Assembly (NCBI GenBank): GCA_009192285.1
Contig: CM018604.1
Location: 2,480,001-2,544,000 of the forward strand
Length of the DNA: 64,000 nucleotides
Origin: Morchella semilibera
Lineage: Eukaryota > Ascomycota > Pezizomycetes > Pezizales > Morchellaceae
Direction of reading: 5' to 3'
Positions 19,778 through 49,731 of the stretch are shown piece after piece. The translations under genes were made by a program, and so were the position numbers. The notes beneath the pieces were generated by a model that saw only the letters and a list, made by a program, of their open reading frames with translations, was not told the DNA's origin and did no database searches. Every line of letters begins with the position of its first letter. The first letter of the stretch is position 1.

Positions 19778-20147
19778 GTTGGAGCTAGTGGCTATGGCGC
19801 TAGGAATTTGGTGGGGTGGGTGAGGGCGGCTTGGCAGAGTCTTTGTTTGACGCTGGCTTGGCAGCAAGGTGGGGTAAAAAATAGCAGAAAAAAAGCGGAA
19901 ATTCACAGCAACTTCTGCAAAAGAAGAGCTGTGATTTCAGGAGTTGGTGATTAGATGCAAGTTGAGATGGAGATGATGGATCTGAAGTCGGTTTGATGAT
20001 ATCTCTGTTGGTTGTTGAGTTATTTTCAAAAATCAGTTCCTGAGGTGGGGTTGCGTTTTGTTCTCTATTGTGTATATGTAGAAGAAAAAAAGGAAAAGAC
20101 AAACAGGTAATCTAAGGTATACAATCTAGTTCTAGCCACAGTATAAT

Positions 20148-21770
20148 TTACGGCTTATTGCCGATCTGTCCCCGTATCCTTGCATTTATGCTTATTGTCA
20201 TATTTTGCCCGTTGTCATCTATCCGGTGCCACAATGCCCAAGCCAGATCAAAATTCTCTAGCTGATTGTGTTTTTTCAAAAATAATTGAATCCATTCCAT
20301 CATATGTTTCAATAGGCCGAGATAAATATTATGCAACATATCTGGCTTGTGAAGATCATATACTTGAGTCTTCGGCAAGGCCCACAAAACATTGTACAGA
20401 GTTTTGAAGGATTTCAACACCAGGTATTCAACGGGTGCTGTATCTGACATATCCTCCTTATAACGCTCTACCATTTCGATATATCGCTCCTGAATGCGTG
20501 GCGGGTTTTCTTGAAGGCTCCCCAGGCCTTTGAAATCAACTTCGCACCTAGGGCAGGCCTGATTGTTGAGGTTTAGTAGCGAGGCGTGTTCTGGCGGATC
20601 CGCAATCCATGTACATAGTATCGGATAACATAGGCGCACATAGCCATCAGCGCATGTTATAAGCTCACCCCTTTCCGCAGGGCCCTGAAGGCCTTCGAGA
20701 ACCTCAGAGAGGACCTGGAGAAGGACTATCTGGCTCTCCCAACGGCGTTTGTTCGTACACACTCCAACCTTTGGTGGCACTAGCAGTAGAGCTAGGAGTA
20801 TGATCGCATAATTAGAGAGTTTATTTCGTGTGTCCGAGGTGATATTGCCAATCGTTAGGTATACTGGTCAAGCCTTCTTGTCACCACTGAAATTAGTGAG
20901 ATGTGTTCCGTCTGATGCACATATTACTGGCACCACCGTTGATCCTTCTGGAAGGGTATTCTATAACATTTGTGAGTGGTTAGCGGAGGCTCCCTGAGCC
21001 TTCAAAGTAAGTGTTGAGAACCTGCATCTCCCATCACCAGTCTGCCGTGTGCATCTCCCCGTACATCTGCTCCCCCATTTCATTGTATTCCATAGTAGAT
21101 GAATACACCAAGAACTCCCTAAATGCACGTTATCCTAGAAGAAAACACACTATATTCACAGGGTCCCTGTAGTAGTAAGGAATTTTCTGCCCTCCCATTT
21201 CGACCTCTGAGTGTATCCAGCACTCTTTTCCTAACCCCCCCATAGATGACATCTCATCGAGGAGGCGTGTGAAGCCTGTACCAGTGCTGTAGGAGACTTG
21301 TAGAGGGCGTACGGTGCGGAAGAAATCATCTATTTGACCCTTAGATACATTTGCTTGTAGGAACCAGCGCGACAACCGAAATTCCTCTGCTGATTCGAAA
21401 GGCTGCCATGAGTTGATCAAAAAGCTTTCCAAGCCTTCAACATATCCTGTTATGGTGAAAAGAGGCTCCCCTGCACCCTCGTATATAGTAGTTGCTAGAT
21501 TGAACCGCGTGGATCCCAAAGTATGATCATCATTCGAATCCGTATCTGACTCACCTTCGTCTAGTATGTCCAAACGTCCACCCTTGTGGGGACCTCCAGA
21601 GACTTCGGGAAGGCTCCGCGAGCCCTCAACGGGAGTCTCTGAAAGCTACCTGTCAAAACATTTGTGGGTCCCTTTTGAGAGATGTCGATTGAAACTACTA
21701 GCATTGGCGTAGCTGCGTATGCAAAATGGACATCCGAGTCGTGATCTCATTACTGATAGTCAATATTGGT
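20148..21770 (-). pseudogene. Element 3: Plavaka-type transposase, decayed
   Basis: The predicted protein starts with a C2H2 finger (GCPFCIRSYANASSFNRHL) and continues with ATTIYEGAGE, YSTGTGFTRLLDEM and HSEVEMGGQKIPYYYRDP. After an intron come CASDGTHLTNFSGDKKA, ITCADGYVRLCYPILCTWIAD, HASLLNLNNQACPRCEVDF and KPDMLHNIYLGLLKHMMEW. These blocks match the transposase at 42290-45239 position by position. The copy is dead: a TAA replaces Gln after CFLLG, a TGA replaces Trp in GDKKAWP, and the C-terminal half is missing where the sequence nears LINE B. AGGCTC/GAGCCT motifs occur within it. Confidence 0.85.
20961..21021 (-). other. Element 3 transposase intron with private motif
   Basis: This 61-nt intron begins GTTCTC and ends TTATAG on the minus strand, between WWEMQ and NTLPEGST. 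Element 1 has an intron at the same codon boundary (43043-43113). The middle of this one is GAAGGCTCAGGGAGCCTCCG, the palindromic motif of elements 2 and 3. Confidence 0.7.
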
Positions 21771-22366
21771 GGAGGCTTTGGAGGCTCTGGAGGCTTTGGA
21801 GACTCTGGAACCTTTGGGGGCTTCCTAAGCTTCCTAGGCTTGGGAGGCTTCGGGGAGGTTGGTACTCTAAATGGGCCCATGCACTAAGAGATCATATCTT
21901 ATCGCACTAACGTTCTGATCACAATATTTGAGTGACATCATATGATTCAATATGATGTTCAATTGTTACTCCAATATATGACGTAGTGAAGTTTGATCGA
22001 AGATCCCCTGTGTTCTCCTATTCTCCTACTTCTATCTTTTTCCCTCCCTAGCATCGATACACTGGCTCAAGCTTACTACACTATCTCCAAGTTTCTGGAA
22101 GCCTTCAAGAGTTTATAATACACCATATAAGATGGTATCTTCAAGTTATCCTCTCTATTGCTCTATATTCAAGCAATTGACATATATACAGGAAGCTTTT
22201 TTTTCCCTCTTTCTATAAGTCGGCATTCAAACCACACCCCTCACCAAACAACCCCAACAACACCCCAGCAAGCCCTAAATAAGGCCAAAAACGAAGCCGC
22301 ATATCCTCCCATAGTGATAAAAACACATCCAAAAAATGGGAGGTCGGACCATTAATCCCTGGACAG
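21771..22366. other. 5' region of element 3 and unassigned sequence
   Basis: Bases 21768-21860 are a run of GGAGGCTT/GGAGGCTC repeats, the motif of elements 2 and 3. The rest to 22366 is AT-rich and shows no convincing gene. I cannot find a clear terminal repeat for element 3 here. Confidence 0.45.
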
Positions 22367-22560
22367 TACCGGGGGTTGAGGGTAAGTGTGGAGACGCTAG
22401 AGTCATTGGTCTACCGAAAATGCAAGTCGTGATTGGTTGATATTTGGGCCAAGGCAGGACACCGCCACTGCCACGTAGAGGAGGAGGAGGAGGTCGTTGT
22501 TGTGAACTGTGAGGACTCTTTCAAACTGTGAGCTTTTGCACCCGCTAATATGATCCAGGC

Positions 22561-22805
22561 CCGCTTGACGCCCTGAGGTCCCGTTCAACGCCGTGAAATC
22601 CTACCCAAAGCCGTGAAACCCTGCTCCACGCCGTGATACCACCCAACGCCGTGGGACCCTACTCAACGCAGTGAAGGCCTTGCTCAACCCTTAGAGACCT
22701 GCTCAATGCCGTGATACCCTACTCAACGCTGTGATACCCTGCTCAACGCAGTGAAGGCCCCATTCAACGCCTTGAGACCCTGCTCGCTAGCAACACTGTG
22801 ATACC
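22561..22805 (+). repeat. Minisatellite, 20-bp unit, about 12 copies
   Basis: Units resemble CCTRCTCAACGCCGTGATAC with 10-30% variation. The array lies between the left terminus and the transposase start of the Tc1-type element, a position where subterminal binding sites are common. Confidence 0.8.
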
Positions 22806-22812
22806 CTGTTTG

Positions 22813-23273
22813 ACTATGAGGCAGAAAGGAAAGCGGTCCGATCATCATGAAAACACCCGGAATAAAGAGACTACAAGAGATGAAATGGTTAGGATTCTTA
22901 CTTTGAGAGAGTCAGGGAAGAGCTGGAGGGAGATAGGAAGGATAATGGAGATAGATTTCAGGACCTGTCAGGGAATATTTAGACGTGCAAGAGCAAATGG
23001 CACTCCAACAAATAGAAGAAGACAAGGTAGACCACCTATTTTCAATGCAGCAGAAAAAGAGAGACTACGTGAGTTTGTTACGAGAGATAAGAGGACACGT
23101 CGTCTACCTTGGGAGGCTATAATCAATGAGATGGGATATGCTTGTTCTACTAGAACTCTACGGGATGTAATGGCATCTATGGGCTATCATAAACGTCTGC
23201 CCCGTAAAAAGTAAGATCTCTAGTTTCTCTGGAGGATTTGAAGCTAGTGATAAATAGATGGGGAATAAGACCA
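22813..23273 (+). pseudogene. Tc1-like transposase, N-terminal fragment
   Basis: About 130 residues are readable and contain two helix-turn-helix units: DEMVRILTLRESGKSWREIG with RTCQGIFRRARANG, then RQGRPPIF with LREFVTRDKRTRRLPWEAI. This is the paired DNA-binding region of Tc1/mariner and Tc3-like transposases. The frame stops after RLPRKK at 23214 and the DDE domain is absent because of the Gypsy-1 insertion. Confidence 0.75.
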
Positions 23274-23904
23274 TGTGACGGAGTGACGCGACGCAAAGAA
23301 GAAGATGACAATGATGACGCAGAGGGACCTCAGGAGCACAGCCTAATGACGAGGAGACCGACGAAGACAAAGGTAGCACCGGGCAGGCACAAACACAGGC
23401 ACCGGCGAAGGCAAAGGCAAGGGCAAAGGCACAAGGGCACAAGGCAGGGATAGTAAGGACCAAATGGACCTCAACGGGAACGATGAAGGATACTATGAGT
23501 TTCCTCCCGTTAGAGGGTCAAGTATTTGGTACAGGAGGCTATGGCTTTAGGAATGGGAGTAGATTCAGATGTACCGAGATAACAGGAAGACGAGACAGAG
23601 AGGAAAGAAAGAAAGAACTAAGGAAAACGTCCAACCCTGCTATTTAACACTACTCCTCCTCCAGTCCGCCATAACTCAAACATCGGTTCATAGAAACCCA
23701 CAGAAACCCGTCGCATCCACACCTCGTATTCCTCCCCACCATCCCCGCTATTTACATTACCAATCCATCACGCCATCAAACCTCCTAGAATTAAATGACG
23801 ACAACCTCCCTTAGCACACCCCCTCCTCGCTTAACCGTTCCTAAACAATCGCAACAGCGCTTCGACTACCAAACTCTTGGGACCGATGCCAAGATGCCGG
23901 GACA
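23274..23904 (-). repeat. Gypsy-1 3' LTR (631 bp)
   Basis: In plus sense it runs TGTGACGG...CCGGGACA. In the element's own sense it starts TGTCCCGG, directly after a purine-rich tract (GGAGGGGACC) at 23905-23920. Related solo LTRs occur at 6332, 40152 and 48692. Confidence 0.85.
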
Positions 23905-23906
23905 GA

Positions 23907-25870
23907 TCAGGTCCCCTCCAAGGGCCTTGCTCCTGATAGGCCGAGGTTTCGAAGGATATTGATCATAAATGCTCTTCGAAGGTTGGAACTATGTTCAAGA
24001 TCGTTCGATGGCTGCCAGGAGGGTTCGTCATAACCAACATATTTAACCAAATACTCCACCCGCCGTCCCCTCTTCCTAGAATCCAATATTTCCGCAACTT
24101 CCCATTCAGTTTCCCCTTCAACCTCCACTGGTGGGGGTGGTTCAACAACTTGTCCTGGAACCGGATCATTCCTCGCCGGCGATAGCAATGAGATATGAAA
24201 TACCGGGTGTATTTTCATGGAAACAGGTAATTCCAACTCATAAGCATAGGGACTCACGATTTATTTAACCAAATAGGGACCGATTTGCTTCCAGTCGAGT
24301 TTCTTCGAGGGTCTCTTTGTTTCAATATTCCGGGTAGAAAGCCAGACAGAATCACCAACAGCATAACGAGATTCCGGAGTCCAGTGTAAACTTGCCATTT
24401 CCTCATGTATCTTCTGAGCCCTAAACATCTCGCTCTTGAGGAAGTCAAAAACCTGGGACATCTCTCTTGCCAGCCCATTGGCCTGATCCCCATTTACCGT
24501 CCTTCCATGTTGTAGCGGCCCAAAAGTCATTCGAGGATGTCTTCCGTAGTTTGCTGGAAAGGAGACATATTAGTGGTTTCGGAAATATGATTATTAGTAG
24601 CAAACTCAGCAAGAGGGAGAAAAGTGGTCCAGTTATCTTGTTGATAGGAAACATAGCTGCGCAAGTATTGTTCTATAATCGCATTAATCCTTTCTGTTTG
24701 TCCATCGGTCTGAGGATGAAAGGCAGTAGAATATCGCGGGGCAATTTCTAACTGATCGCAAAGAGCTTGCCAGAACTCTGCCGTAAACTGTGTCCCTCGG
24801 TCTGAAACAATAGTTTCTGGCAATCCATGTAACTTCCATACCTGCTCCAGGTATAGACGAGACAGATCCCTGGCGTTAACATTCTCTGTTGTGGGAATCA
24901 AGTGTTTCATCTTTGTCAACCGATCCACTACCACAAGTATGGCGTTAAACCCATTACTCTCCGGGAGTCCGGTCACAAAATCCATAGTAATATCCGACCA
25001 AGGTCCCTTGGGTGCTGATAGCGGCCGCAAGACTCCTTGAAGAGGATTATGACTCACTTTACTCCGCCGGCAAGTGTGGCAATTCTGGACATAGCAATCT
25101 GTATACTTCCGCATGGTCGGCCAATAATAGTTCCGGCTCAGGAGTTCTAATGTCTTCGATCGTCCAGGGTGTCTAGCAGAGGGTTTGTCGTGGTATTCCC
25201 GTAACAGATAAAGCTTAAGCTCGTCGTAATCGGGGACATAGAGTGTATTCCGATAAAGCAATAACCCCTCCTCGCTTTCCTTACACTCAGCCAACAAAAT
25301 CTCTTTCGATTGACGGACGCCGTCTCGAAGCATGAATAGGATTTTGCTTGGGAAGCTGTCATACTGGTAAGCTTTATTAAATAAATCAAGTACGGGAGAC
25401 GATCCTTCAGCGGGTTCATTTGACAAAGAGCCCGCTAACAAACCTATCTTTGAATCTAAATTCTCCTTCTTCAAGACCACCCGACTTTGTTGTTCCAATC
25501 TCTCATCCCCTTCCTTCGGTAGATACTTAGACCTCCGGGTCAAAATATCAACTTTCCTCCCCTGTTTTTCGGGTCTATATTGGATAACAAAATTAAACTG
25601 AGACAAGAACTCTGCCCAACGAGTTTGACGCCGGTTCAGCAATTTGGTTGACATAAAATACTTAAGATTGCAATGATCTGTGAGCACCTTCACTTGGAAT
25701 TGAGCTGTCTCCAGGTGAGGTCTCCATTCTTCGAAACAACGAATAATGGCCAGCAATTCTTTGTCATAGATCTCATAGTTGCATTCCGCAGGCGATTGTG
25801 TCTTAGAAAAGAAGGCAACTGGGTGGAGTACTCCTTCATCATCGCGTTGTGATAATATCCCTGCCGACAC
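23907..25870 (-). pseudogene. Gypsy-1 RNase H, integrase and chromodomain
   Basis: From 25870 down, RNase H motifs ([46 protein letters not shown]) are followed by the integrase HHCC zone ([26 protein letters not shown]) and the DDE core ([46 protein letters not shown]). A frameshift and stop near 24527 separate this from the GPY/F region and from the chromodomain ([25 protein letters not shown]), which ends at 23907. The chromodomain targets integration to modified chromatin in this family. The RNase H start is split by Gypsy-2. Confidence 0.88.
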
Positions 25871-35336: not shown

Positions 35337-35591
35337 TGTGACGGAGTGACGCGACGCAAAGAAGAAGATGACAATGATGATGCAGAGGGACCTGAGGAGC
35401 ACAGCCTAATGACGAGGAGACCGACGAAGACAAAGGTAGCACCGGGCAGGCACAAACACAGGCACCGGCGAAGGCAAAGGCAAGGGCAAAGGCACAAGGG
35501 CACAAGGCAGGGATAGTAAGGACTGAATGGATCTCAACGGGAACGATGAAGGATACTATGAGTTTCCTCCCGTTAGAGGGTCAAGTATTTG
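35337..35591 (-). repeat. Gypsy-1 5' LTR, truncated
   Basis: It follows the 3' LTR closely from TGTGACGG to GTCAAGTATTTG. It is then cut by the CATCAGCAA end of element 1. The sequence between it and the gag start (35275-35336) holds the primer-binding site region. Confidence 0.83.
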
Positions 35592-35730
35592 CATCAGCAA
35601 ACTCACATGTCTCCGCCTGGCGCACCTGGCGTCCCTAGCGCTCCAGGCGTTGAAAACACAGACCGCGTCTCCAGGAAAGGAGCGCTCCGCCAGGGGGACC
35701 GGTTTCCGCCACCAGCGCCTGGCGCCGCCC

Positions 35731-36030
35731 GGCGCACACTATCATCTCCTGGCGCACACTATCATCTCCTGGCGCACTCTACTATCTCCTGGGGCACTAT
35801 AATATCTCCTGGCGCTCTCTACTATCCCCTGGGGCACTCTACTATCTCCTGGCGCACTCTACTATCTCCTGGGGCACCATAATATCTCCTGGCGCACTCT
35901 ACTATCCCCTGGGGCACTCTACTATCTCCTGGCGCACTCTACTATCTCCTGGGGCACCATAATATCTCCTGGCGCACTCTACTATCTCCTAGGGCACTAT
36001 ATTATCTCCTGGCACCCCCTATTCTGTCCT
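35731..36030 (+). repeat. Tandem array, 15 units of 20 bp
   Basis: Units alternate between GGCGCACTCTACTATCTCCT and GGGGCACTATAATATCTCCT types without length change, exactly 300 bp. The array lies just inside the left end of element 1 and is likely a subterminal protein-binding array. Confidence 0.9.
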
Positions 36031-36230
36031 GGTGTATGCGCCTGGCGATTCGCTAGTGCTCTAAAGGGAGTCGCCAGTGCTCTCATGGCAGTCGGGAATG
36101 CTCCCAGGGCACTCCCGAAGCTGTGTTTATTGATATCTCATACTACTATACTACTAAATCCAGCTAAAGATAGATATGAACTAATAATAGTACCCCGTAT
36201 CACCACAGGTAATTGCCTATCGCGCGCAGA

Positions 36231-38668
36231 TCACCCTTCATCTTCCTCCAAGATCGTCTCCACAGTAGAGCCGAGGTCTACGCCTCTGAGTCGAGCGTCG
36301 ATCACCGAATCATCGTCTTCGCCGTCATCCAAGGACTCCGCGGGCCTGGGCGCTACCCTGATTGTTTTCCGAGCCTTCCGGAATGCTGCCAGATCGGCGG
36401 CAAGTGCATCATCATCTTCATTCAACCCCTCTACGGGTATAACCTCCAGGATTACCCCCTTCACTTCCCGTATCTGAAACTGAGGTTAGTCAGGTGGCTT
36501 GCTGTACTATGGCTAGTTGCTTACCTTATCTCGAAGATTCTCCTTGATCAACTCCAAAACAGCCTCCTGGTTCGCTCTACTACGAGCCCTCCATGTATTC
36601 ATCATCCTCGTGAATGTTTCTAGTACCATCAGCACTCGTGAATGCCCTCATGGCACTAGGGCACTACTTACTCACGACTGTCTCGTTCTGAGATTGAAAG
36701 TGCTCTGGTCTCACATACCACCCCGTCGACCAGGCGCGAATTCCATGCCAGATCGCCGTAGATATCAGACAAATCAGAGTAGGTGTTATCCGCTCTAAAA
36801 ACTCAGGGTCTCTAACCCCCCGCATCCTGATACCGTCGAAGAATTTGAAATAAAGAATGTCCACGATCTCTGGTGCCAGAAACCGGCAGCGATGTGTCCA
36901 AGGTTGTCAGCGCACTCCTCAAAGCTCTCTGGGCACTCCCGAATGCTCTATGGGCAAAAACGTACCTCATAGTGGTCTGGATGGCTAATGAAACGGTCAC
37001 CTTGCAGGAGAAAATTCACGCGCGCCGCTCTTCCATCTGACATCGCGAATTTTGAAAAACCCATAAATGGTTCTGTCGGCGATCCGGCTTTTGACCTCGC
37101 TCATCAAATGTGAGCGGACACGGGAGTGGACGCTCCTGACCTATTTCATCTTAGTAGTGTCCTCAAAGCATTGGGCAGTGCCCTCAGGGCACTGAGGAAT
37201 GCCCCTGGTGTACTCACTTGCTTAATTATAGCCTCGTCAAGTTCTGGCGTGCAACCTACAATATGACTAGCCTTGCTCCACATATTCACCACCAGAGACC
37301 AGAGCCTCGCAGGGTTCGGAAAGGGTTCCTGGAGTAGAGTATGTTCGCCGATTAGGACACTGCATTCTCGTTCGACTCGCTGAGCCTGCACCGGGATTGT
37401 GCTTACGCTCCTCGAGTTACTGCTACGACGAACCTGGGAGGGAATGTCCTGAGAGCTCTCGTCAATATACCCAGAGGCAGGTGGAGATTCATATCCGGGC
37501 AGAGGTGGCTGCCCTGATGATGGTGGTGGTTGCTCCTCTTCTCTAGACCACTGCTGATAACCTGATTCCGTACTCTCATTCCGACATTCATCATATGGTT
37601 GGTTTGGGGACGAACATTGAGGGTCCGGCTCATAGATAAGTGATCTTCGTGGCACGATATCCCGTGTGGCACTCCCCATTGCTCTAGAGGCACTCCTGGA
37701 TTGGCGTATGGGGGGCGTATTTTCAGAGTCCGGCTCATAAAAAGAAGTAGTTAGTGCTCTCTATGCAGCAGCAGCGGCGTCCCGTGATGCACTCCCCACC
37801 GCTCTCGAAGCACCCGCGGGTTGGCGCGTAGGGGGCGTATATTCAGAGTCCGGCTCGTAAAAAGAAGTAGTTAGTGCTCTATGTGCAGCAGCGGCGTCCC
37901 ATGATGCACTCCCCACTGCTCTCGGGGCACTCGCGGATGTTTCTGCCACTCTGCCCACTGCTCTCAGGGCACTCGCGGATGTTTCTGCCGCTCTGTGTAC
38001 TGAATCCGGAGCCCGTCCAGATCCTCGTTCCCGGTTTCTCATAGGTTTAGCCGCCGGACGGTTTCCTTTCTGCGTCCCCACCCACTTATCAGTTAGCAAG
38101 AGGCAGCTTGAAGGAATGGCTACTATACCTGAACCACAGACAATTCAACATCCGATGAGGCAATTGCCTCCATTACCGCTGCTGTTGGCTTTCTTCGCGT
38201 AGTTGCCGGTGCGCTGGCAGTGGTAGCCAGTGCTGATGGGGGCCTCTTACCGCTCACTTGACTTCTTGATGTCCGGGTTGATTGTGGAGTCTGTGAATAG
38301 TTGGTATCGTCCTCAGAAGAGTGCTCTGAGGGGGGGATTTCCTCCTGGTCCTCGACATCCGACCCTGCATTCCCTTGATCTTCCTCCGGAATGTTGAATA
38401 ATACCTGTCTCTCACGACTACGCAAACCACTACGCAGAGCACCTTTGGGAGGTGAAGGCACTGGTGGAGGCACCGGTGGCGGCGCCATCAGTGGCACCTC
38501 CGGTATATCATCGAAGTCTGTGGTTGAACCGTCATCATTCAATTCGGTGATACGATCTGATTCATTTAAGACTTCACCAGTAGTAGGGAGGGTCCTAGGG
38601 CGTTTATGAATCGCATTGGGATCCCCTCCACTAGCAGTGGGAAGAGGCCGCTTGCTGCTAGGGGGCAT
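36231..38668 (-). pseudogene. Element 1 accessory gene 2 (DUF6532-like), multi-exon
   Basis: Exon 1 (38668-38129) encodes a disordered, Ser/Pro-rich start and ends VELSVVQ before GTATAG. A second large exon holds repeats of TTSFYEPDSE and ends in VLIGEHTLLQEPFPNPARLW and ELDEAIIKQ (near 37220). Further exons encode SRVRSHLMSEVKSRI, VNFLLQGDRFISHPDHYE, VDILYFKFFDGIRMRGVRDP with TLICLISTAIWHGIRAWSTG, RMMNTWRARSRANQ, and a tail (LNEDDDALAADLAAFRKARK) ending at 36231. The TAIW..LR.W..G block resembles the C-terminal part of the fungal DUF6532 family; that is an inference. One base too many near 37020 and a stop near 37758 suggest that this copy is damaged. Function unknown; the homologue is at 46966-49731. 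Confidence 0.68.
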
Positions 38669-38838
38669 CTTGATTATCCGGAGGGTGTTGACGAGTGCTT
38701 ACAGGGCAGAGCTGTGCCCCTGAAAGAAGTGCGGGGTTAGTAGACTATTTTCTTGGCGTGAAAATTTTCCACGCCTAGCCTAATATGGAATTAGCGCATC
38801 GTCACATACTATCACTCGGAAGTTCACTTCATCTCATT

Positions 38839-39000
38839 GGGGGCACTCCTCACTACCCCTGGAGCACTCCTCACTGCCCCGGGAGCACTGTTCACTGCCC
38901 CGAGCACTTCTCACTGCCCAGGGAGCACTGTTCACTGACCTGTGAGCACTGTGAATCACTGACTCGGGAGCACTCGCGACTGCCCTGGGGGCATTGATTC
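38839..39000. repeat. Cluster of the element 1 motif
   Basis: Seven or eight units of about 21 bp of the type GAGCACTCCTCACTGCCCCGG follow each other between the two accessory genes. A smaller cluster (GAGCAG...GACTGCCCT) lies at 39115-39172. No coding sequence is seen here. Confidence 0.82.
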
Positions 39001-40151
39001 TGGAGTGCAAAAAACAAATTTATTGCTTGCCTAGATGATAATGCTAACATGAAACACAACAAAGCCTCCGGGAAGGATAGCGGGGCGACAAAACTTCTTA
39101 ACAACAAATACGAATGCCCTGTAAGCAGTGGCGACTGCCCTCCGAGCAGCCCCGACTGCCCTTGGAGCAGAGAACGGATCAACAAAGCATCAATAAATAT
39201 AGTAGGAAACTTAACAATCTTTAGCTTGCCTCAGTAGTATCCGCATTAGCCTTTTCCTTAGCTGCTCTCCGTTCTGCTATCTCGGCGGGAGTCCAGATCT
39301 TCCCAACTAGGAAATCCGGGTCGTCCGGGCCAACTCCTAAGGGGAACTTCCGAAGGTATAGTGGTGTAAGTTGGTCGATGCCGCCCTGCTGCCTATCCCG
39401 ACGTACTATGAGCTCGTGGAGGACTTTTTGGAAACCTATGTCGCTACGGGGCAACTGTATCCTGCGCCCGGTGGCTGTGACCCCTGACATTTGGATCGAA
39501 CTCGGTATCTTCTGCCGGCAGGTCGACGAGAGTGTAGTCCTCCTCCTGTATGTAGGGAAAGACCTGCGAGCGGGTGGGGTCTCTAGACCATCGACGCCAG
39601 CCGTGCCTGCCCTGTGGAGAATGGCCAGTATCCTGCGGGGTCTAGCCTTGGTGTCTTGCAACCAACACTCAACCTCCTCGCTGTCGGTGATCTGGACGCT
39701 CCTCGGGGCCTGTCCTTCAGGGGCATCCTCCATTGCTCCCTGGATAGACCTGATAACCCTACCCGCTGGGTATGCTTTAGTATTACCCTGCAAAGCTCAT
39801 TGAAGGTGGGTTTGGTCATGATCCCCGCGAAGTTAGGCTCATTGCCCTCGTCGTCCCAGAAGTATTCAGGCGTTACACTGGGGTGGTGGCCTCCATAAAA
39901 ATCAGGGTCTACCACGGTTACCGTAATGCTGGGTCGGGATTGCTCCAGGGGCACCCGCGATTGTCCTTGGGACTGTGATGATGCCCCTTCCTCCGGAGGC
40001 TCGTCGGTATTGCCATGCCTGGCCCTAAACTCACGCATGCCATTGCCTCTAGACCGCCTCTCCTTGGTTCCAACGTCACTGATGAGCCACTTCAGGGCAT
40101 CCGACAGGTCTTTCTTAGCAGGGCCTTCTTCACCCCTCCATATAGGGGCAA

Positions 40152-40785
40152 TGTCCCGGCGTCTTGGCATCTGTCCCGACAGTCCGGTAGGTGATGCATG
40201 GTTATGATTGTTGTGGTAATGTTAAGCGAGAGCGGGGAACGCGAGTTGAAGGTTGTCGTCATTAGGTTCTAGAAGGTTCGATGGCGTGATGGATTGGTAA
40301 TGTAGAATACTGGAGATGGTGGGGAGGATTACGAGGTGTGGTAGCGACGGGTTTCTATGGGGTTCTATGAGCGAAAGTGTGAGTCATAGCGGATCAGTGA
40401 GGAAGGTGTGTTAAATAGCGGGGATAGATGTTTTCCTTAGTTCTTTCTTTCTTTTCTCTCTGTCTCGTCTTCCTGTTATTCTGGTACATAGGAATCAACT
40501 CCTATTTCTAAGCCATAGCCTCCCGTATCAAAGACTCTGTCCTCCAAAAAAGGGAAATCTTATAGTACTTATCATTGTTCCCGTTGAGGTCCATCTGGTC
40601 CTCGCTTTCCCTGCTCTGTGTCCTTGTGCCTTTACCCTTGCTTTTGCCTTCGCCAGTGCCTGTGCTTGTGCCTGCCCGGTGTTGTCTTTGTCTTCGTCGG
40701 TCTCCTCGTCGCGTAGACTGTGCTCCTCGAGCCTATCTGCGTCATCATTGTCATCTTCTTCTTTGCGTCGGGTTACTCCGTCACA
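40152..40785 (+). mobile_element. Solo LTR with GGCAA target duplication
   Basis: It is 634 bp long, from TGTCCCGG to CGTCACA, of the Gypsy-1 family. GGCAA precedes it (40147-40151) and follows it (40786-40790). Removing it and one GGCAA joins FLKHLA to PIWRGEE in a single frame of accessory gene 1. Confidence 0.9.
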
Positions 40786-40999
40786 GGCAAGGTGTTTCAA
40801 AAACTCGGTGGCTATAAGCCAGCTGCATAACTGGTTGAATTGGACCATACCAGACTTGGTCTTGTTCACACAGCCTGTGGCTATCATGCGCGCGGTGAGG
40901 TCATTGCGGAGAGTAGTATAGACCTTGCTCGTACCGGCTAGGCCCAAGGTGGTTTTAGACTTCTGTGCAAGGCGGCTCATTCTGGACCTTTTTGATATG

Positions 41000-41190
41000 C
41001 GTTGGGGGGCACTGAGGTTTGCTTTCTGGGTACTGGCGGTTGCTTTCTGGGCACTGGAGGTTGCTTTCCGGGAGGTTGCTTTCTGGGTACTGGTGGTTAC
41101 TTTCTGGGTACTGGCGGTGGTTTTCTGGGTACTGGCGGTAGCTTTTCGGGCGGCTGCTTTCCGGGCGATTGCTTTCTGGGCGGAGGAGAC
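41000..41190 (-). repeat. Coding tandem repeat in accessory gene 1
   Basis: Units of about 18-24 bp (CTTTCTGGGTACTGGCGGTTG on the plus strand) encode the repeating STQKAT/ARKAT peptide. The GGGCACTGG/GGGTACTGG core resembles the element's dispersed motif. Confidence 0.7.
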
Positions 41191-41617
41191 AGGTTCTGAA
41201 TCAGAGCTGCTCAGGGGACTTAGGCTTGATAACTCAGAATCTGAACTCTCGGACGGTTGGGTCGCTTCAACTTCACTCTCAGCTGCTATATTTGGATGGG
41301 GAAGTTCAGGACTAATTAGCCTAGGCCTCGACCTTGGAACGCCTGATATCTTCTTTCTCTTAGCGTGGGGCCCAGCCTTCTTGGTTGGTGTAGGATAGGA
41401 GCAGTTTCCGTTGCTGGATGAAGGTACGTCGTATATGTCCTTGCGCTTATGGCTGTTGCTGTCCTTGGGGTTACTACCAGTGCTCCGAGGATTGCCGGTG
41501 GTGCTTTGATGGTTGCTGGGAGTTCCCTAATACGAGATAGCTATGAGTATGATGAGATGCTTATAGAATTGGGGGACTGGACCTTATTTATAGAAGTAAA
41601 CTCCATCTTGGTTGGTA

Positions 41618-41775
41618 TGAGTTGAAAGCCGTGAATTGAAAGTAGTGAATCGAAAGCGATGACTTGAAATCGAAAGCGATGACTTGAAAGCGGTGAATCG
41701 AAAGCGATGAATTGAAAACGGTGAATCGGAAGCGATGAATTGAAAGCGGTGATTTGAAAGTGGTGATTTGGAGGT
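41618..41775. repeat. Minisatellite with 14-bp unit
   Basis: About eleven units of TGAATYGAAAGCGR type occupy the region between the divergent transposase and accessory gene 1. The position suggests a part in the shared promoter region, though nothing proves this. Confidence 0.8.
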
Positions 41776-42289
41776 GAGTAGTGGTAGAGGTGCGGATTGG
41801 GCTCCAGTTTGATGCTCTAGGAGCACTCTCGGGTGCTTTGGGGGCACCTGCCTCTCAGACCCTCGCCCAATATGCGATATCCAACATATGATGTCATTAG
41901 CGGCTTCTGCACTGTGTCGTTGGTTTCCTGGCGCTGCCGATTCATGCTGGAGTATCTTCATAGCCCCAGGGTCCAATTGAGCTCTACGGGTTTCGCCATT
42001 GCCTGCAAGCAGTGCCGAATGCTCCTAGGGCAGTCGGGAATGCCCCTAAGACGGTCTGGAGTGCCCCTAGGGCAGTGGCGGGTGCTTTCAGAGAAGGCAT
42101 TGTTTGCAATAGTGTTTGCTGGTACGCTGATGTGATGTTTTTGATATCTGGAAGTCTGTGGGAGGCAAACAAACTATCGATGTCTTGGCGGCAGGGATAG
42201 CTGCAGGGGTAAGGTAAAAACTCCACCTCATGAGCACTAACGACTGCCACTAGAGCACTCCCGACTGCCTCCAGAGCATTCACTGCGCG

Positions 42290-45239
42290 ATGAAGTCTAT
42301 GTGTCCTTTCTGCACCAAATGTTATAGCACTTCAGCAGGTTTTGATAAGCATCTCCGTTCTGCGCACCCCAGCAAGGCGGATGAATGGTTCATAGAACAG
42401 TCAAATTTCTTTGAGCTCGAGAGCCAGTTAACCAGTCCCGACGACTCCCAAGATAGTGCTGATGACCCAGAAAACGGAAGCAACTACTGCGGAGGGCAAG
42501 CCGACTCGGATCTGGAATCCGAACCCTCTTTCATGCAGGATTCGGAGGACAATGAGGGGAGAGGTTGCGCAACAACTATTTATGAAGGTGCGGGGGAGGG
42601 CTTGTTCGTCTCTAAGGAGTATCCCCAGTGCTCCGAGAGCCTTCTTGAGGACCCGTGGCACCCCTTCAACTCAGCATACGAATTTCGGATTGCGCGCTAC
42701 TTCATACTATCCAAGGCATCGCAAAGCAACATCGACAGTTTCTTTCTTCATGCCCCAGTAAGCAATGGGCAGTGCTCCTATAGCACTGGCCGGGGCTTTA
42801 TGCGAAGGTTGGACGAAATGAATGATTATCTGGGAAAATCGAGCTGGCGACATTCTGAGGTTGAAATAGCGGGGCAAATGGTCCCGTACTACTACCGCGA
42901 CCCGTTAACAATTGTGCGATTCCTTCTTGGCCAGCGGGCATTCAGGAATTACTTAGTGTACGCGCCGGTGATGGAATATAACGAGTCAGGGGAAAGGATG
43001 TATGGAGAAATGCATACGGCAGACTGGTGGTGGGAGACACAGGTGAGAACTCCCTAATGCCCTGAGAGCACCCGCTAATGCCCTGAGAGCACCCGCTAAT
43101 GCCCTAAAAACAGAATACACTACCGGAAGGATCTACCTTAATTCCTATCATATGCGCGTCGGACGGTACACACCTGACAAATTTTAGTGGAGACAAGAAG
43201 GCCTGGCCAGTCTATTTGACGATTGGTAATATTGTTTCCTCGGTGCGGGGCAAGCCCTCAGGGCACCCGCTAATTCCCCTGGGGTTGTTGCCGGTGCCTC
43301 CAAAGCTGGGGAAAAACGCGAATGCCAATATGCTGCTCCGCCGTCAGAGTCAAAAGGCACTACACCAAGCTCTCAATAACATTTTCGAGAGCTTGAACAG
43401 ACGCAAGGACGGAGAGGTGATGGCCTGCGCGGATGGCTTCGAACGCCTCTGCTTCCCGGTCCTATGCAGCTGGATTGCCGATCAATCCGAACATGCATCC
43501 CTGCAAAATATCAGCAACTACGCCTGCCCTAGATGTGAGGTAGAATTCCAATGCCTTGGGAGCACTGGGCGATATCCTGAGCGCGATCATCAAAGCTATC
43601 AGGATATGGTTAGGAGTTTAGGGGGAACCCGGCAAACACATCAGCAGTCCAATACCTTGTATCGAAGTCCGTAAAGACACTCTTCAATGCTTTCTGGGAT
43701 ATGCCCAGGGTCAACGCCTACGACCTCAACAAGCCCGATATCCTGCACAACATATATCTAGGCTTATTAAAACACATGATGGAGTGGGTTCAGGCGTTCC
43801 TCAAGAAGCATAATCGATTGGACGCGTTCGACCAGGCTTGGTCGTCGATTGCACCATATCCTGGGCTTGCAGTACCAAATAAGCCTTACAGGGCGACGAC
43901 ACAATGGCAGGGAAAGGAGATGCGGAATCTTGGGCGGATTGTCCTGGGGGTACTCGCGGTTGCTCTGAGGGACCCGTGCGCAGCTGTGAGGGTAGACTTT
44001 GGGAAGGCGCTAAAATGTGTACGCTCATTGATAGATTTTCATTTGATGGCGCAGTATGGGAGTCATACAAGAGATACCCTAGACTATCTAGAGGGATATC
44101 TCAAGGACTTCCACAAGTACAAGGATATCTTCCTTGAGTTTCGCGCTGACAAGCGGGTGAAGAATAATGCAAGGGAGCGGACGAGAGCCTTGAAACAGCA
44201 GACTGAAGGCTCCCAGAGCACTGACCACTGCCTACGGGAGATTCACGAGATCCGTGAAAGGTCGCACTTCAACTTCATTAAGTTGCACCTGCTATCACAT
44301 TATAGGGAGCATGTGGAGCGCTTTGGTAGCATTCCGATGTTCTCCACAGATATGAGCGAGCTCGCCCATATACACCAGATCAAAGAAGCATATAGAGCAT
44401 CGAATAAGGTCGACGCGGCGACCCAAATCCTGGACTATGGCGGGCGACGATTAGCACTAGAGATACGAATATTGAACCTGAAAGATATCGTCGGGACTCC
44501 GGAGGGTAGTGGTGAAAGCCTCTGGAGACATCACGACAACCTACGGGAGTTACTTGAGGTGCTCGAGACCGAGGAGCGGAAAAGGTTACCTAGCGAATGT
44601 CCTGTTATCGATGCTCGACTCCCATTACGGAAGCTCTGCAATCCATCGCGAGAATCAAAACGACTATATGATATCGCGGATGCGCTTAGAATGAGTAGAA
44701 TGACACTGGTCAGGCTTGTGAGAGAATATGCAGCAGATACGGGATGCCTTGAGAGCTTTGCCGGAAGCTGGGAGAGCATTAGTGAGTACCGTGTGGAAAG
44801 GTTCAGGTGTCTGCGGGTGCCTATACCCATTTTCCAAAGACCAGACGTATATGAGTTTCATCACCTCCGCTGTACAGGAGATGTAGTATTCAGAAAGCGG
44901 GGAGTAAGGAACGATTGGATTTGGGTTGCGGTATCATCAGAAGAGCACTGGGGAGTGCTCAGAGGACGTCTTCCGGGTAGGCTAGAGGCTATAATCAAGC
45001 TTCGTGATAATAGAGGGCGATCCCATAGACTGTGTGTGGTGGAGCTTTTGGAAGCAAAGGACTCTGGGACTCCCGATAGCCCTCATGGCCTTCCGAGAGT
45101 CTCCAGACGCTCAAGAAATAGGGTATGGGTAGTGAATATTCGCAGCATATTGGGAATGGCTCACCTATTCGAAGTTGATGGAGGAAACTGGCTTGTAAAT
45201 AGTAGGATTGATTTGCGTACATGGAATGAATTTAGCTGA
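42290..45239 (+). pseudogene. Element 1 Plavaka-type transposase
   Basis: It begins MKSMCPFCTKCYSTSAGFDK, a C2H2 finger at the very N-terminus. Further blocks are ATTIYEGAGE, YSTGRGFMRRLDEMN, SEVEIAGQMVPYYYRDP and GEMHTADWWWETQ. After the 71-nt intron (43043-43113) come CASDGTHLTNFSGDKKAWPV, the zinc-binding ACADGFERLCFPVLCSWIAD with HASLQNISNYACPRCEVEF, NKPDILHNIYLGLLKHMMEW, QWQGKEMRNLGRI, RSHFNFIKLHLLSHYREH and the tail ILGMAHLF, NWLVNSRIDLRTWNEF. Such proteins form a CACTA-like group that cuts and pastes DNA. A frame change near 43640 (between GGTRQTH and AVQYLVSKSVKTLF) interrupts an otherwise full-length protein of about 930 residues. It could be a sequencing error. Divergent to the accessory genes. 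Confidence 0.88.
43043..43113 (+). other. Transposase intron made of the element 1 motif
   Basis: This 71-nt intron starts GTGAGAAC and ends AAACAG. Nearly all of it is three copies of a unit CCCTGAGAGCACCCGCTAAT. The position matches the element 3 intron at 20961-21021. Confidence 0.8.
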
Positions 45240-45267
45240 ATAGTTAGCTTGAAGTTGGTTTTCTAAG

Positions 45268-45684
45268 CACTGATGAATGCTCTCAGAGCACTGATGAATG
45301 CCCCCAGAGCACTGGTGGGTGCTCTCAGAGCAATAGTACACTTGAGAGGGGTGGGGAGAATAATCAGGTGGAGAGGGCTTCAGGCGCTCCAGGCGTAAAG
45401 GCTTGGAGTCTCCGCCCTGGCGAGAGGGTTGCGCCAGGAGATGGTGGTAATGGGATCCTCTCCAGGGGCTCCAGGAGCTCCAGGCGCAAAGGCTTGGTGT
45501 CTCCGCCCTGGCGAGAGGGTTACGCCAGGAGATGGTGTGGTAGGATGCATCTCCAGGGGCTCCTGGCGCCTCCAGGCGATAAGCCTTGGCGTCCGCGCCC
45601 TGGCGCAGGGGTTTGCGCCAGGAGAACAGCTTTGCGCCAGGGCGGAGGGTTATGCGCCCAGAGACAACTGCAAGCTTGCTGATG
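45268..45684. repeat. Right subterminal region of element 1
   Basis: Three GAGCACTGATGAATGCTCTC-type units (45268-45335) are followed by three roughly 95-bp units with CTCCAGGCG...CGCCAGGAG palindromes, and then the terminus TTGCTGATG. The left end has the same CCTGGCGC character. Confidence 0.75.
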
Positions 45685-45773
45685 CAAGCAGCCCTCCTCC
45701 GCCTCATTATCGATGTATCCTAGAAGAGAAACAGGACAGCCCAATGCCACTGTGGGGCTTTAGGGGCCGCAGA

Positions 45774-46652
45774 TGATGAAGTTAAAGATACACCCACCGC
45801 CGGGGCACCTCCTGCCCGTACAAACGAACTGCAGACCACACCGGAGTTCTGGCAGGCCTTGGGAATACCCTACAGGCCGGCAATAACTATACATATTATT
45901 GACTCAGAAAGGGTTCTAGGTATCCCCAGCAATATATACCGCCACTACGATTGGTACAGGCCCGTATCGCTTATCCCCTTTATTAACATCTTTCAGGGGT
46001 TGTCTATGCAAGATTTGAAAAGACTTGCAATAAAGCGAGCCCCACCAGCGGCTTCAGGAAGCCTCGCGAGGGCTTTCCGAGCCTTCTACAGGGCGTTGTC
46101 CAATTTGGCCCCGGTGGCAGGCACCCTATCCCCCAAATCCAGAATGTGCAGATCGGAGATTCTGAAGAACTGGAAGGTTGGCTCAAAACCACAGAGACAA
46201 AACCCTTAAGGCTCTGTGCGGTGCTTCACAGGCCTTCAGCAATCATTATTGGGCCTACCCAAATGCCTCAAAAACCTTCACTAGAAGGATATCAGCACTT
46301 TACTAGAGTCGACATTGATGGAATAGAGCTTGATGTTGAGGAGGAAATGCTAACGTTTAGGAATAAGGTTGATCAAACAGGTTTGAATATCTCCAAGCCT
46401 TGTACTGATGAGGGATGCCAGATGGTCCAGGTGGTGGTGCATGAGCGTTCCGAGAGGCACGGAGCTATTGGAAGAAGGCTCAATCAGCATTATAGAAGGC
46501 TCTACCCAAATGCCATTACATTTGAGTCTTGTCACTATGATCGTGAACGTATTTGGACCCAGGCTGAGAGAAATCACCTGTTTAGGCACACCAATGGTGA
46601 AGGCGGAGATGCCAATAACCGTGTCTCCGAAGACTCTAGCGACCTAGTGTGA
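45774..46652 (+). pseudogene. Element 2 accessory gene 1 homologue
   Basis: Blocks line up with the gene at 39221-41531: RPAITIHIIDSERVLG (PSITVTVVDPDF there), LSMQDLKRLAI, then in another frame NVQIGDSEELEGWLKTTETK, CAVLHRP, QVVVHERSERHG and RIWTQAERNHLF. The frame change near 46100 falls in a stretch made of the AGGCTT/GAGCCTTC motif, so it may be an intron or decay. It ends at 46652. The first part of the gene is lost at the junction with element 1. No known domain. Confidence 0.62.
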
Positions 46653-46965
46653 GTTTAGAAGGCCCGAGGGGCGTTGATTAGAGCTTAGAAGGCTTGATTA
46701 GAGTTTAAAAGGCTTGATTAGAGCTTGGAAGGCCTGATAAGCGGTTTGATGTTGACTGCAGTTGTTTTTTGTTTTTTGGAGATGCAGTTGCAATTTTGCC
46801 TGTTTGGGAATGTATGGTTGCCTATTTGGGTATCATGTTATCTTATTTAGGTTAGTTATAGGATTGATTTTGTCTTAGCAAGCCGTCCGGAAGGCTTCTC
46901 GCCAAAAACCTCTAATTGCCGAGAAAAAGCAAAGGTGATATGGTGTGAATCGAACCATATATAGT
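46653..46965 (+). other. Gap between element 2 accessory genes
   Basis: Apart from the 20-bp repeat, the stretch is AT-rich and has no convincing frame. It presumably holds the terminator of gene 1 and the promoter of gene 2. Confidence 0.5.
46674..46735 (+). repeat. Tandem repeat, 20-bp unit, three copies
   Basis: Three units of TTGATTAGAGCTTAGAAGGC type stand between the two accessory genes. The corresponding gap in element 1 holds the GAGCACT cluster. Confidence 0.8.
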
Positions 46966-49731
46966 GGAGATGAGAGGCTTCATGAAGGCTCTTCCAGCCT
47001 TACAAACCACTATCATGGCTTCACAGAGAGCAGAAATCAACAATTGTGGCGATGAGGAAGGACATGACATGCAAGCCCCGATCTCCTCCTCCATTAATCA
47101 ACGTCTAAGCGGGGCGATAAGTGTTTCGAGTGCTGCGAGCAGTAGGAATTCCGGTACTACAGAACCAGATACTGACCCCAATTAATATGGCTCCCCGAAC
47201 ACTCCAGAACGGTTTCCGGATGGGGCAATATTGGTAAACGGAGCGTTGCAGGGCCCAACAAAAACCTGGAGTGATTTTGATGATCATCCAGAGGAGGAAG
47301 ACTACGTTCAAATTCATGAGGATGACTATGAGAACGAGGAGCCGGGAGATGAGAATGCACCACCGCCCCAGCGTATGCCTTTATCAGAACGGAATATATC
47401 CCCAGTCCCACCATCCCTACCACAACCACCACAACTACCACCACCATCACAACCACTGCCAAGACCACCATCAAACCGGGGTTCGCGAGCTGGAAAAATA
47501 CCAAGGGAAGCCCCTGTGGCCTCCGCCAAGGCTCTTGCAGCCACTCGAAGGAGACCTAGTGGACTGGCAGCAGAAGCAATTGCTTCTTCTTCTTTTGAAG
47601 TAAATATGATGCAGGTATGTGATATTTAAATCCCCCTCATCTCAGTCAAACCGCTGATATATCGGAGCACGGAAACTGTCATGTCGTGAATTCCCGAAGG
47701 CTGGAAACTCCACGGAAGGCTGGAGCAGCCTCCGAAAGGTCTAGCATCGCCTCCATAAGTTCATCATTTCGCTCGAACAGCAGCACTTTGCGACAAGAAC
47801 TCGACCGCGAGAACAAGACAACCCCTTCAAATTCACAATCTTTTTGCATGCCTAGCTCTCCACAGCAATATCGTAGAGCCCTATCTCCATATAGAACGCC
47901 AATGCCTTCGCAGTATGAAACGCCAACGCCTTCGTAGTATATAGCACCAGAGCCTGACTCCATTAAAGAAAACTCAGCAGAGGCCAATTCGGTAATCAAC
48001 CATGCGGGATATCTTCTCAGACGTTATACATTGCTCGAGGAGCCTTGGCCTCAAGCTGATTCTCTTAGTATTAATGTCCGTCGGTTTTGAAGTGAGGCAA
48101 ACGACCATTTTAATAGAAGTCTACCAATAACTTAGTTAGCTAGGGGCGACGTGAGTGCCTCATGTGCCTTTCGGAGGGCTTAGTGAGCCTTCGCTAACTT
48201 CTTCCATTAGGTTCAAATCAATTATTCGCGGGTGAGATCGCACCTTGTTTTTAAAGTGAAGGACTGCATGTCAAAGGATCTTTTGTATGGCTTGAGCAAG
48301 GAGAAAACGACAGAGGGAAAGGGTAAGAAGGTGTCCTTTCTCATCGAGAATGACCGTTTTATAAGCAATTCTGATAATTATACTGTAAGAGCTCTCTCCA
48401 CCATTCTATGAGCCTTCGGCAAGGTGCTGACAGCCACTGGACAGGCCGGCTTCACTTTTGGGCCCAGGAAATCGTAGAAGTAATATTTCTAAAATATTAC
48501 AAAGGTGATAAAATGTGTGGGGCCAGGGATCCTGGTTTCATTGATGATATAACTCAGGCGTTTATTAGCCTAGTTTGCACCTCAATCTGGTTTATCTTAC
48601 GATCTTGGAAAAGAGGTATATACGTTGAAGGGTTGAACTTCAATCCGCAGCAGAAACCGGATATCATGAGTAAGGCGCACCAAGCTCTCTATGTCCCGGT
48701 GTCTTGGCATCGGTCCAGATGGTTTGGTAGTTGTGGGGCGGTTGCGATGAATGGAGTTAGGTTAATCAAGGATGGGGTAAAATAAGGTGGGGATGTCGTC
48801 ATTAGATTCTATGAGGTTCGATGGCGTGATGGATTGGTAATAGGAATTCGCGAAGTGGTGGGGAGGAATACAAAGTGTGGTTGGGATGGATTTCTATGGG
48901 TTTCTGTAAGTGAATGTGTGAGTCATAGTGGACTGGTGGAGGAGAGGTGTTAAATAGTGGGTGTAGATGTTTTCCTTAGTTCTTTCTTTCTTTTCTCTCT
49001 GTCTCGTCTTGCTGTTGTCTCGGTACATAGGAATCTACTCCTATTCTTAAGCTATAGCTCCTCGTACCTAAGATTTTGTCCTCTAAGCAGGAAAGCCATA
49101 GTACCTCTTATCGTTCCCGTTGAGGTCTATCCGGTCCTCACTCTCTCTGCCCTACACTCTTGTGCCTTTGCCCTTGCCTTTGCCTTTGCCGGTGCCTGTG
49201 CTTGTGCCTGCCCGGTGTTGTTCCCGTCTTCGTCGGTCTCTTCGTTGCGTAGGCTGTGCTCCTTGGGTCCTTCTCCGTCATTATTGTCATATTCTACGTT
49301 GTGTCTGGTTACTCCGTCACACTCTAAAAGGCTTCTTTCTGACTTCAGGATACCTCCAGCTACCTATAACAGGATGTTAAGCACATGGGGGAAGAGAAGC
49401 AAGGAGAACCAAAAGGGCACACTGGAAGTAATATGAGAATCAATTCGCGAGAAGGTAAATAAAAAAGTCTCAAAGAGACTTATCTATATACTAACAAGCC
49501 TTTTAGGTCGATGAGTTAAGAGGGCCTAAAGAGGTTATATCCAGAGTCGGCCTGGAGGAGGATGATGTTCAATTAGCTGCGGATATAGCCGCATGGAGAG
49601 CTGCAAAGAGGTGCGGGAAGAAAGGAAAGGCACCAGCAGTGATTGAGAGAAGCAATTTGGGGGGCGTGGGCATGGCGAAAGCGGGAGAGGCATTTCAAGA
49701 GACTCCCACCGCCTCGACGGTGGATATGTGA
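46966..49731 (+). pseudogene. Element 2 accessory gene 2 (DUF6532-like) homologue
   Basis: The start is uncertain; 46966 is the first reasonable ATG. Exon 1 ends AIASSSFEVNMMQ before GTATGTG, like exon 1 of the element 1 gene. RRYTLLEEPWPQADSL follows, then an intron (GTGAGTGCC..CATTAG, 48150-48209) and SRVRSHLVFKVKDC with VSFLIENDRFISNSDNYT. Next comes EIVEVIFLKYYKGDKMCGAR with TQAFISLVCTSIWFILRSWK. An intron interrupted by the LTR 48692-49321 follows, then RMLSTWGKRSKENQ and GLEEDDVQLAADIAAWRAAK, ending at 49731. A TGA before ESIREK and a stop near 47938 break the frame. Function unknown. Confidence 0.65.
48692..49321 (+). mobile_element. Solo LTR with CTCTA target duplication
   Basis: It is 630 bp long, TGTCCCGG...CGTCACA, Gypsy-1 family. 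CTCTA stands at 48687-48691 and again at 49322-49326. It lies within a predicted intron of element 2 accessory gene 2. Confidence 0.88.

Follow-up and report, generated by a model that had tools for sequence, protein, structure and literature searches.

Palindromic 21-bp units throughout a Plavaka transposon of Morchella semilibera as putative operators with family-specific inner triplets

Sequence-specific self-recognition encoded by transposons is, to our knowledge, hardly documented outside plants. In the En/Spm (CACTA) elements, which we take to be relatives of Plavaka, a second element protein, TnpA, binds short repeated sites located near the element ends and acts in transposition and on the activity state. 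The sites of the element described here (denoted element 1), in contrast, run throughout the element, and its ends hold other repeats. In introner-like spread, many unrelated loci gain introns that consist of one and the same unit. For the unit arrays of element 1, VANC appears to be the closest working model. Excerpts of two reports on VANC and the VANDAL elements of Arabidopsis (PMC5735166, PMC10398659) describe several features resembling those found here: a short motif that is dense in one family and rare in others, its multiplication as tandem repeats, also within introns, different motifs in related families, and a family-specific element-encoded protein, the counterpart of which is putative in our case. 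According to the same excerpts, the VANC21 motif comprises 9 bases, occurs in the same orientation and is mainly noncoding (PMC5735166, PMC10398659). Element 1, by contrast, carries 18-bp palindromes in 21-bp units, which are also exonic and partly positioned at homologous codons. The VANDAL elements are Mutator-like, whereas element 1 is a fungal Plavaka transposon known here from its sequence; the comparison thus concerns how the arrays may work, not membership.

The window, i.e. the whole 64-kb stretch of DNA that was analysed (contig C2, 2480001-2544000), contains element 1, a Plavaka DNA transposon of 10.1 kb, at 35592-45684 (no strand assigned). It has ends of the PlavakaB type, 5'-CATCA..TGATG-3', at 35592 and 45684, imperfect terminal inverted repeats of ~20 bp and a Plavaka domain. 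The transposase domain and these ends are as in the excerpted parts of the PlavakaB report (PMC12730594), and a 2-bp TA duplication at the copies on contigs C9 and C10 would agree with PlavakaB target-site duplications of 2-3 bp. None of the terms "subterminal", "tandem repeat" or "binding site" appears in the main text of that paper as available (PMC12730594), and no entry listed in our searches of the open-licence literature names such motifs in Plavaka. Both ends of element 1 are common to the C9 and C10 copies; the right end also recurs in the copy on C20 and the left end at locus L027. TA/TA flanks the C9 and C10 copies (probably a single event), and the flanks of the element 1 copy are TG/CA, i.e. 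without a matching target-site duplication.

Gene 1 is marked by a DUF6532-like exon on the reverse strand (36688-36885; PF20149, 30.7 bits, cut-off 24). Gene 2, an accessory protein gene on the same strand (39221-41526), is split by a nested, motif-free insertion of 635 bp (40152-40786, no strand assigned) that is missing from the C9 and C10 copies; in the C10 copy, gene 2 forms a single open frame of 555 amino acids. The Plavaka transposase gene occupies 42290-45239 of the forward strand. Its reading frame is broken near 43.6-43.7 kb, and PF18759 matched its three open frames with 60.1, 148.7 and 22.6 bits (cut-off 26.3, the third match being below it). Transposase intron 1 (43043-43113, forward strand, 71 bp) is supported by the Morchella proteins P0004 and P0009, which read across its position uninterrupted from WWWE(I/M)Q to NTLPEGST. 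All organism-named database relatives of the Plavaka and accessory proteins are from Morchella (M. importuna, M. sextelata, M. conica and M. snyderi). The 635-bp repeat nested in gene 2 has relatives at L018, L020, L025-L027, L058 and L059, and partly at 35337-35590.

The repeated unit measures 21 bp and consists of the 18-bp palindrome GAGC-ACT-N4-AGT-GCTC and a 3-bp linker; about 60 copies are present in element 1. An iterated position weight matrix (PWM) built from element 1 itself revealed a 21-bp period and the consensus CTCAGGGCACTGGCGAATGCT. Neighbouring sites are spaced by exactly 21 bp in 16 cases, by 22 bp in 5 and by 20 bp in 3. An earlier note on this DNA had described imperfect palindromes of about 20 bp; the palindromic repeat is confirmed, the length is corrected to 21 bp. 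Its written motif is a consensus; as an exact string, GAGCACTCNCGAATGCTC, it has no match in the genome. Each of the 16 places at which it had located the motif overlaps a PWM match; the list was nevertheless incomplete, further sites being located at 39945-39971, 41003-41149, 42611-42658, 42755-42803, 43556-43582, 43944-43970 and 44212-44238.

Of 70 PWM matches in the 64-kb window, 63 fell at 35.5-45.7 kb. The seven matches elsewhere scored 12.0-16.0 bits, compared with 29.8 bits for the best match in element 1, within which some matches were equally weak (12-13 bits). As a control for circularity, the motif was learned de novo on one half of element 1 and scanned on the other. The left-half motif (36030-40151) yielded 13 sites when scanned over the right half (4,554 bp), and the right-half motif 17 sites over the left (4,122 bp); in the 53,904 bp outside element 1, each found 1 site. 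Equal frequency in the flanking DNA, which would have spoken against the earlier note, is thus not observed. With both half-learned motifs, the nested 635-bp insertion gave 0 sites. When the whole-element matrix was used to pick the training sites, which makes the test stronger but less independent, the corresponding counts were 32 and 26, with 2 and 1 sites outside element 1. Sites matching GAGC-ACT-N4-AGT-GCTC at 11 or more of 14 letters numbered 27 in element 1 versus a mean of 0.8 over 20 randomised sequences with matching dinucleotide composition. The gap between the half-sites is sharply defined: 27 sites were found at a gap of 4, and 0-3 at each of the gaps 0-3 and 5-8.

As had been proposed, the sites lie in introns, spacers and coding stretches alike. 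By hand-drawn gene limits, the 59 sites with scores of 14 bits or more (36.0-45.4 kb) are allocated as follows: 3 to the transposase intron, 11 to the transposase exons, 10 to gene 2, 15 to gene 1 (its exons plus introns) and 20 to positions between or beside genes. Tandem units mark the left side (36039-36108, no strand assigned). Probable gene 1 introns, judged by eye, hold a unit at 36626-36652 (forward strand, 21.6 bits) and further PWM-matched units at 36906-36953 and 37161-37209 (both without assigned strand), and the long open frame of gene 1 contains units that encode SASRAVGSA-type repeats (37663-37989, no strand assigned). An array separates genes 1 and 2 (38837-38989, no strand assigned), PWM-matched units lie 3' of gene 2 (39118-39165, reverse strand), and the coding sequence of gene 2 includes a motif-like array that encodes TASTQK repeats (41003-41149, forward strand). 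The intergenic sequence that follows holds a single unit (41817-41843, forward strand) and an array (42003-42092, no strand assigned), both found by PWM, as are the units upstream of the transposase start (42228-42275, forward strand). Intron 1 of the transposase consists nearly entirely of three 21-bp units; an exonic site at 44939-44965 (forward strand), GAGCACTGGGGAGTGCTC, matches all 14 core letters, and three tandem units lie 3' of the gene (45261-45329, forward strand). The outermost 355-447 bp of element 1 contain other tandem repeats and only one, weak, motif match (35888, 12.2 bits). These subterminal repeats, of a different type (20/40 bp and 91 bp), are located at 35731-36013 and 45375-45625, have the cores TGGCGC or CCAGGCG, and are possible end-recognition sites.

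Genome-wide counts were made over 56.8 Mb in 23 contigs. One exact tandem form occurred at 16 places, 14 of them in the copies on C2, C9, C10 and C20, a distribution at odds with introner-like spread; the other two are a decayed relative on C5 and an isolated place on C1. The reversed pattern of this form was found nowhere in the genome. The place on C1 (4306125-4306149) is a lone tandem-type unit with no other 14-bit match in the surrounding 16 kb (L023, L024). Six flank or neighbour loci (L018, L020, L022, L024, L026 and L027) gave no match at 14 bits; family copies are dense in the motif, so that the VANC-type feature of density in one family and rarity elsewhere is present. Single element 1 sites with up to two mismatches numbered 210 genome-wide versus 178 for the reversed control, and it is therefore density, not the single site, that marks the family. 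The motif had been called private to element 1; this holds for the transposon family as a whole but not for this single copy, as three further copies (C9, C10 and C20) and the decayed relative on C5 carry it. The copies differ in unit number, with 2 units at 36906-36953 in element 1 and the C10 copy and 3 in the C9 copy, and, at 37.9 kb, with a 42-bp repeat present 2 or 3 times. A search for stronger conservation of the motif letters among close copies was negative: compared with the C20 copy, 3 of 91 noncoding and 6 of 101 coding key motif positions had changed, versus 38 of 663 noncoding and 151 of 3,683 coding positions outside the sites.

The motif of element 1 is one case of a rule that extends across related Plavaka families, each of which has a preferred inner triplet; uniqueness to element 1 is accordingly rejected. 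All 64 triplets were counted in the frame GAGC-xyz-N4-zyx'-GCTC at 11 or more of 14 letters, with families A, B and C each represented by a single 10-kb locus of one genome. ACT ranked first in the C2, C10 and C20 copies (27, 28 and 16 sites) and in D' (9 sites; 8 in the 30-locus count), CTT in family C (19 sites), TTT followed by TAT in family B (6 and 5 sites) and, weakly, ATT at L062 (4 sites). In family A, ACT, CTT, TAT and TTT gave 0 sites. The Gypsy stretch and two other stretches of the window had 0-2 sites for these four triplets, 0 for ACT, and 4-5 for the best of the 64. Grouping 30 Plavaka loci by DNA similarity gave 4 A, 11 B, 14 C and 1 D' loci, which within each family are near copies and not independent. 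CTT ranked first in 14/14 family-C loci (8-11 sites each) and TTT first, or tied with TAT, in 11/11 family-B loci (3-5 sites); ACT, ATT, CTT, TAT and TTT were all at 0 in 4/4 family-A loci. The second VANC-type feature, different motifs in related families, is thus also present (ACT, CTT and TTT/TAT), D and D' having ACT in common. A de novo search in family C returned GAAGGCTtgGGaAGCCtT (33 sites in 24 clusters), second behind another tandem repeat, and the family-C element also has 10 ACT-type matches; for D', B and A this search was weak or ambiguous, and the D' and B triplets rest on the 64-triplet count. CTT sites numbered 570 genome-wide versus 213 for the reversed control. In the tree, element 1, D', B, C and the named Morchella proteins form one clade (100/100), with family A outside on a long branch.

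Family-C-like Plavaka sequence with the CTT motif lies in the window at 45688-49000, the right flank of element 1, and at 18500-24000. CTT ranked first in the stretches at 18.5-24 kb and 45.7-49 kb (5 and 9 sites, ACT 0 in both); at least two Plavaka families have therefore left remnants in the window. Near the second remnant, at 22585-22785, is a local tandem repeat with the core TCAACGCCGTGA.

Exonic sites with 10 or more of 14 letters were compared with 1000 synonymous-codon shuffles that kept protein and codon usage. The transposase exons of element 1 contained 7 ACT sites versus 2.4 after shuffling (2/1000 shuffles reached 7), those of the C10 copy 6 versus 2.1 (1/1000) and those of D' 6 versus 1.9 (6/1000), the latter failing on summed score (71/1000). 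For family C we observed 11 CTT sites versus 3.7 (1/1000) and for family B 7 TAT sites versus 1.7 (1/1000); TTT in family B showed no significant excess (119/1000), and family A exons showed none. In gene 2, own-triplet sites numbered 5 versus 0.9 in family C (1/1000) and were in borderline excess in the C10 copy (50/1000). Foreign triplets were also in excess in some exons (TAT in element 1, 6/1000; ACT and CTT in B, 4/1000 and 5/1000; TTT in C, 1/1000). The family specificity of the exonic sites is therefore blurred, because the patterns have eight letters in common.

Several exonic sites occupy the same codons across families. Between element 1, D', B and C, shared aligned exon positions numbered 2-5 versus 0.2-0.5 by circular shift when two or three triplets per family were allowed (ACT/ATT/AGT, TAT/TTT/TCT, CTT/CCT); the excess was seen in 6/6 pairs, and 0-87 of 5000 shifts attained the observed overlap. 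In the conserved protein stretch IVLG(V/A)(L/F)AVAL (43944-43970 in element 1, forward strand), the codons read GGGTACTCGCGGTTGCTC in element 1, GGGCACTCGCGGTTGCTC in D', GAGCTTTGGCGGTGGCTC in B and GAGCCTTTGCAGTGGCTC in C. Re-tuning at homologous sites was compared between families with different triplets, with the random-column mean subtracted; the family's own triplet exceeded the finder's triplet in 7/10 comparisons, and the three exceptions were all B versus D/D'. By this comparison, re-tuning at shared sites is clear where C is set against the other families, but is not supported for B versus D/D'; high fixed-letter matches at such sites are partly plain gene homology. The sites at common codons are therefore inherited and in part re-tuned, not freshly copied in. 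Of the "unknown copying process" invoked earlier, the 21-bp and 42-bp steps between copies are consistent with copying, whereas the exonic sites at the same codons across families are not.

A candidate protein partner is suggested by the distribution of gene 2. The gene is present within 15 kb of 11/11 family-B, 2/2 D' and 4/4 D loci, and the 5' part of its frame adjoins 14/14 family-C loci when the locus DNA is checked; the search itself, in which 78 of 175 candidates were scored, gave 7/14 family-C loci within 15 kb by that list alone. In total, gene 2 accompanies 31/31 checked loci of motif-bearing families, an association that is phylogenetically confounded, both gene and motif being confined to one clade. 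None of the 4 family-A loci has gene 2 nearby, although 3 of them do have DUF6532 in their vicinity. Because it is present by motif-bearing loci and absent by 4/4 A loci, the gene-2 protein is most likely the first candidate binder of the unit, with the transposase second. No Pfam domain passed its cut-off for gene 2, for which the highest-ranking matches were DUF7767 (E=0.003, 18.1 bits) and Tri-helical (E=0.012, 16.4 bits; cut-offs 27). The transposase has weak C2H2 (E=0.0033, 18.2 bits, cut-off 25.2) and C-terminal HTH matches (E=0.064, 13.5 bits, cut-off 24.6). TET/JBP had no match in the Pfam search of the subset of element frames supplied.

We propose, with a probability of roughly 0.6, that the units are operators for a transposon-encoded dimeric protein, with family-specific triplets, that the coated element would be protected from silencing, and that the units arose by local duplication and drift. 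A dimeric DNA-binding protein from the transposon, probably that of gene 2 or else the transposase, would bind the 21-bp units through half-sites composed of a common outer GAGC/GCTC and the family-varying inner triplet, and the difference in triplet would enable each family to mark and recognise its own copies. Coating along the whole element, introns and exons included, would most likely keep it open and active against host silencing, much as VANC acts on the VANDAL elements of Arabidopsis; like TnpA of En/Spm, the protein may also have a role in transposition. The local spread of units would proceed by tandem duplication and loss; sites that were inherited would drift towards the current triplet of the family, exonic ones partly via codon choice. 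Protein binding to the units, the identity of the binder and the anti-silencing role are what we infer from sequence. A dimer on double-stranded DNA would fit because of the fixed gap, the two-fold symmetry, the 21-bp (two-turn) spacing and the independence of the arms. The dimer proposed in the earlier note accordingly appears the best reading, given the fixed 4-bp gap, the independent arms and the tracking of the motif by gene 2, though not one that is unique to element 1. More tentatively, at slightly less than even odds in our estimate, the families may share an evolving self/non-self code: an operator in the fixed frame GAGC-xyz-N4-zyx'-GCTC, its triplet set by the family's protein, distributed element-wide including introns and coding exons, so that related transposons within one nucleus would each act only on their own family's copies. 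A single genome thus provides, in four related families, natural variants of one putative operator that differ in a triplet, as well as candidate proteins to go with them, and the co-evolution of protein and DNA in selfish elements becomes open to direct testing; if the proposal is correct, binding sites would be maintained within exons through codon choice.

The units could instead be transposase sites for end recognition and synapsis, like CACTA subterminal repeats and with no epigenetic role. Plavaka transposases resemble those of EnSpm in the excerpted parts of the PlavakaB report (PMC12730594), and the weak C2H2 and HTH matches of the transposase would suit such a function. Because the sites are spread over the full length of the element, with some in exons and introns in the middle of genes, and its outermost 355-447 bp hold other tandem repeats and a single weak motif match, we nevertheless favour a role in chromatin or activation over end synapsis, which we regard as unlikely. 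Somewhat less credible still is a neutral minisatellite that spreads within each family by slippage and gene conversion and is tolerated since 21 bp keeps the reading frame. Tandem arrays in 21-bp steps, the varying unit numbers at 36.9 kb and 37.9 kb and the lack of extra conservation among close copies are all compatible with it; many sites, however, are single, some lie at codons aligned between families, the exonic sites exceed synonymous-codon shuffles, and the 4-bp gap is kept across families while the triplet changes.

The palindrome with its 4-nt centre and the intron made nearly entirely of units might also point to RNA or DNA hairpins (7-bp stem, 4-nt loop) that act in RNA stability, splicing or small-RNA biology. 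The arms of the unit, however, vary independently and not as base pairs. The 59 sites contain 228 Watson-Crick pairs versus 242.7±5.6 after shuffling of right-arm letters (1998/2000 shuffles reach 228), in a test that is not fully clean, as choosing sites by a score threshold pushes the arms towards negative correlation. Three of 7 stem positions are slightly above the shuffle mean, none significantly (575-832/2000 shuffles reach them). With no base-pair covariation within sites, hairpins are disfavoured and, in our judgement, highly improbable. We attach equally little weight to a host factor, activator or silencer, that would bind the sites in place of an element protein: one host protein would be expected to prefer one motif, whereas families in the same genome keep the frame but differ in triplet, and the presence of gene 2 follows that of the motif.

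Contigs C9 and C10 are almost the same length and carry their copies at similar positions, and these two copies are therefore probably alleles. Matches at nearly equal positions were also seen for the contig pairs C12/C13 and C21/C22, as for C9/C10, and together with the near-equal C9/C10 lengths they suggest that, for some chromosomes, both haplotypes have been retained in the assembly.
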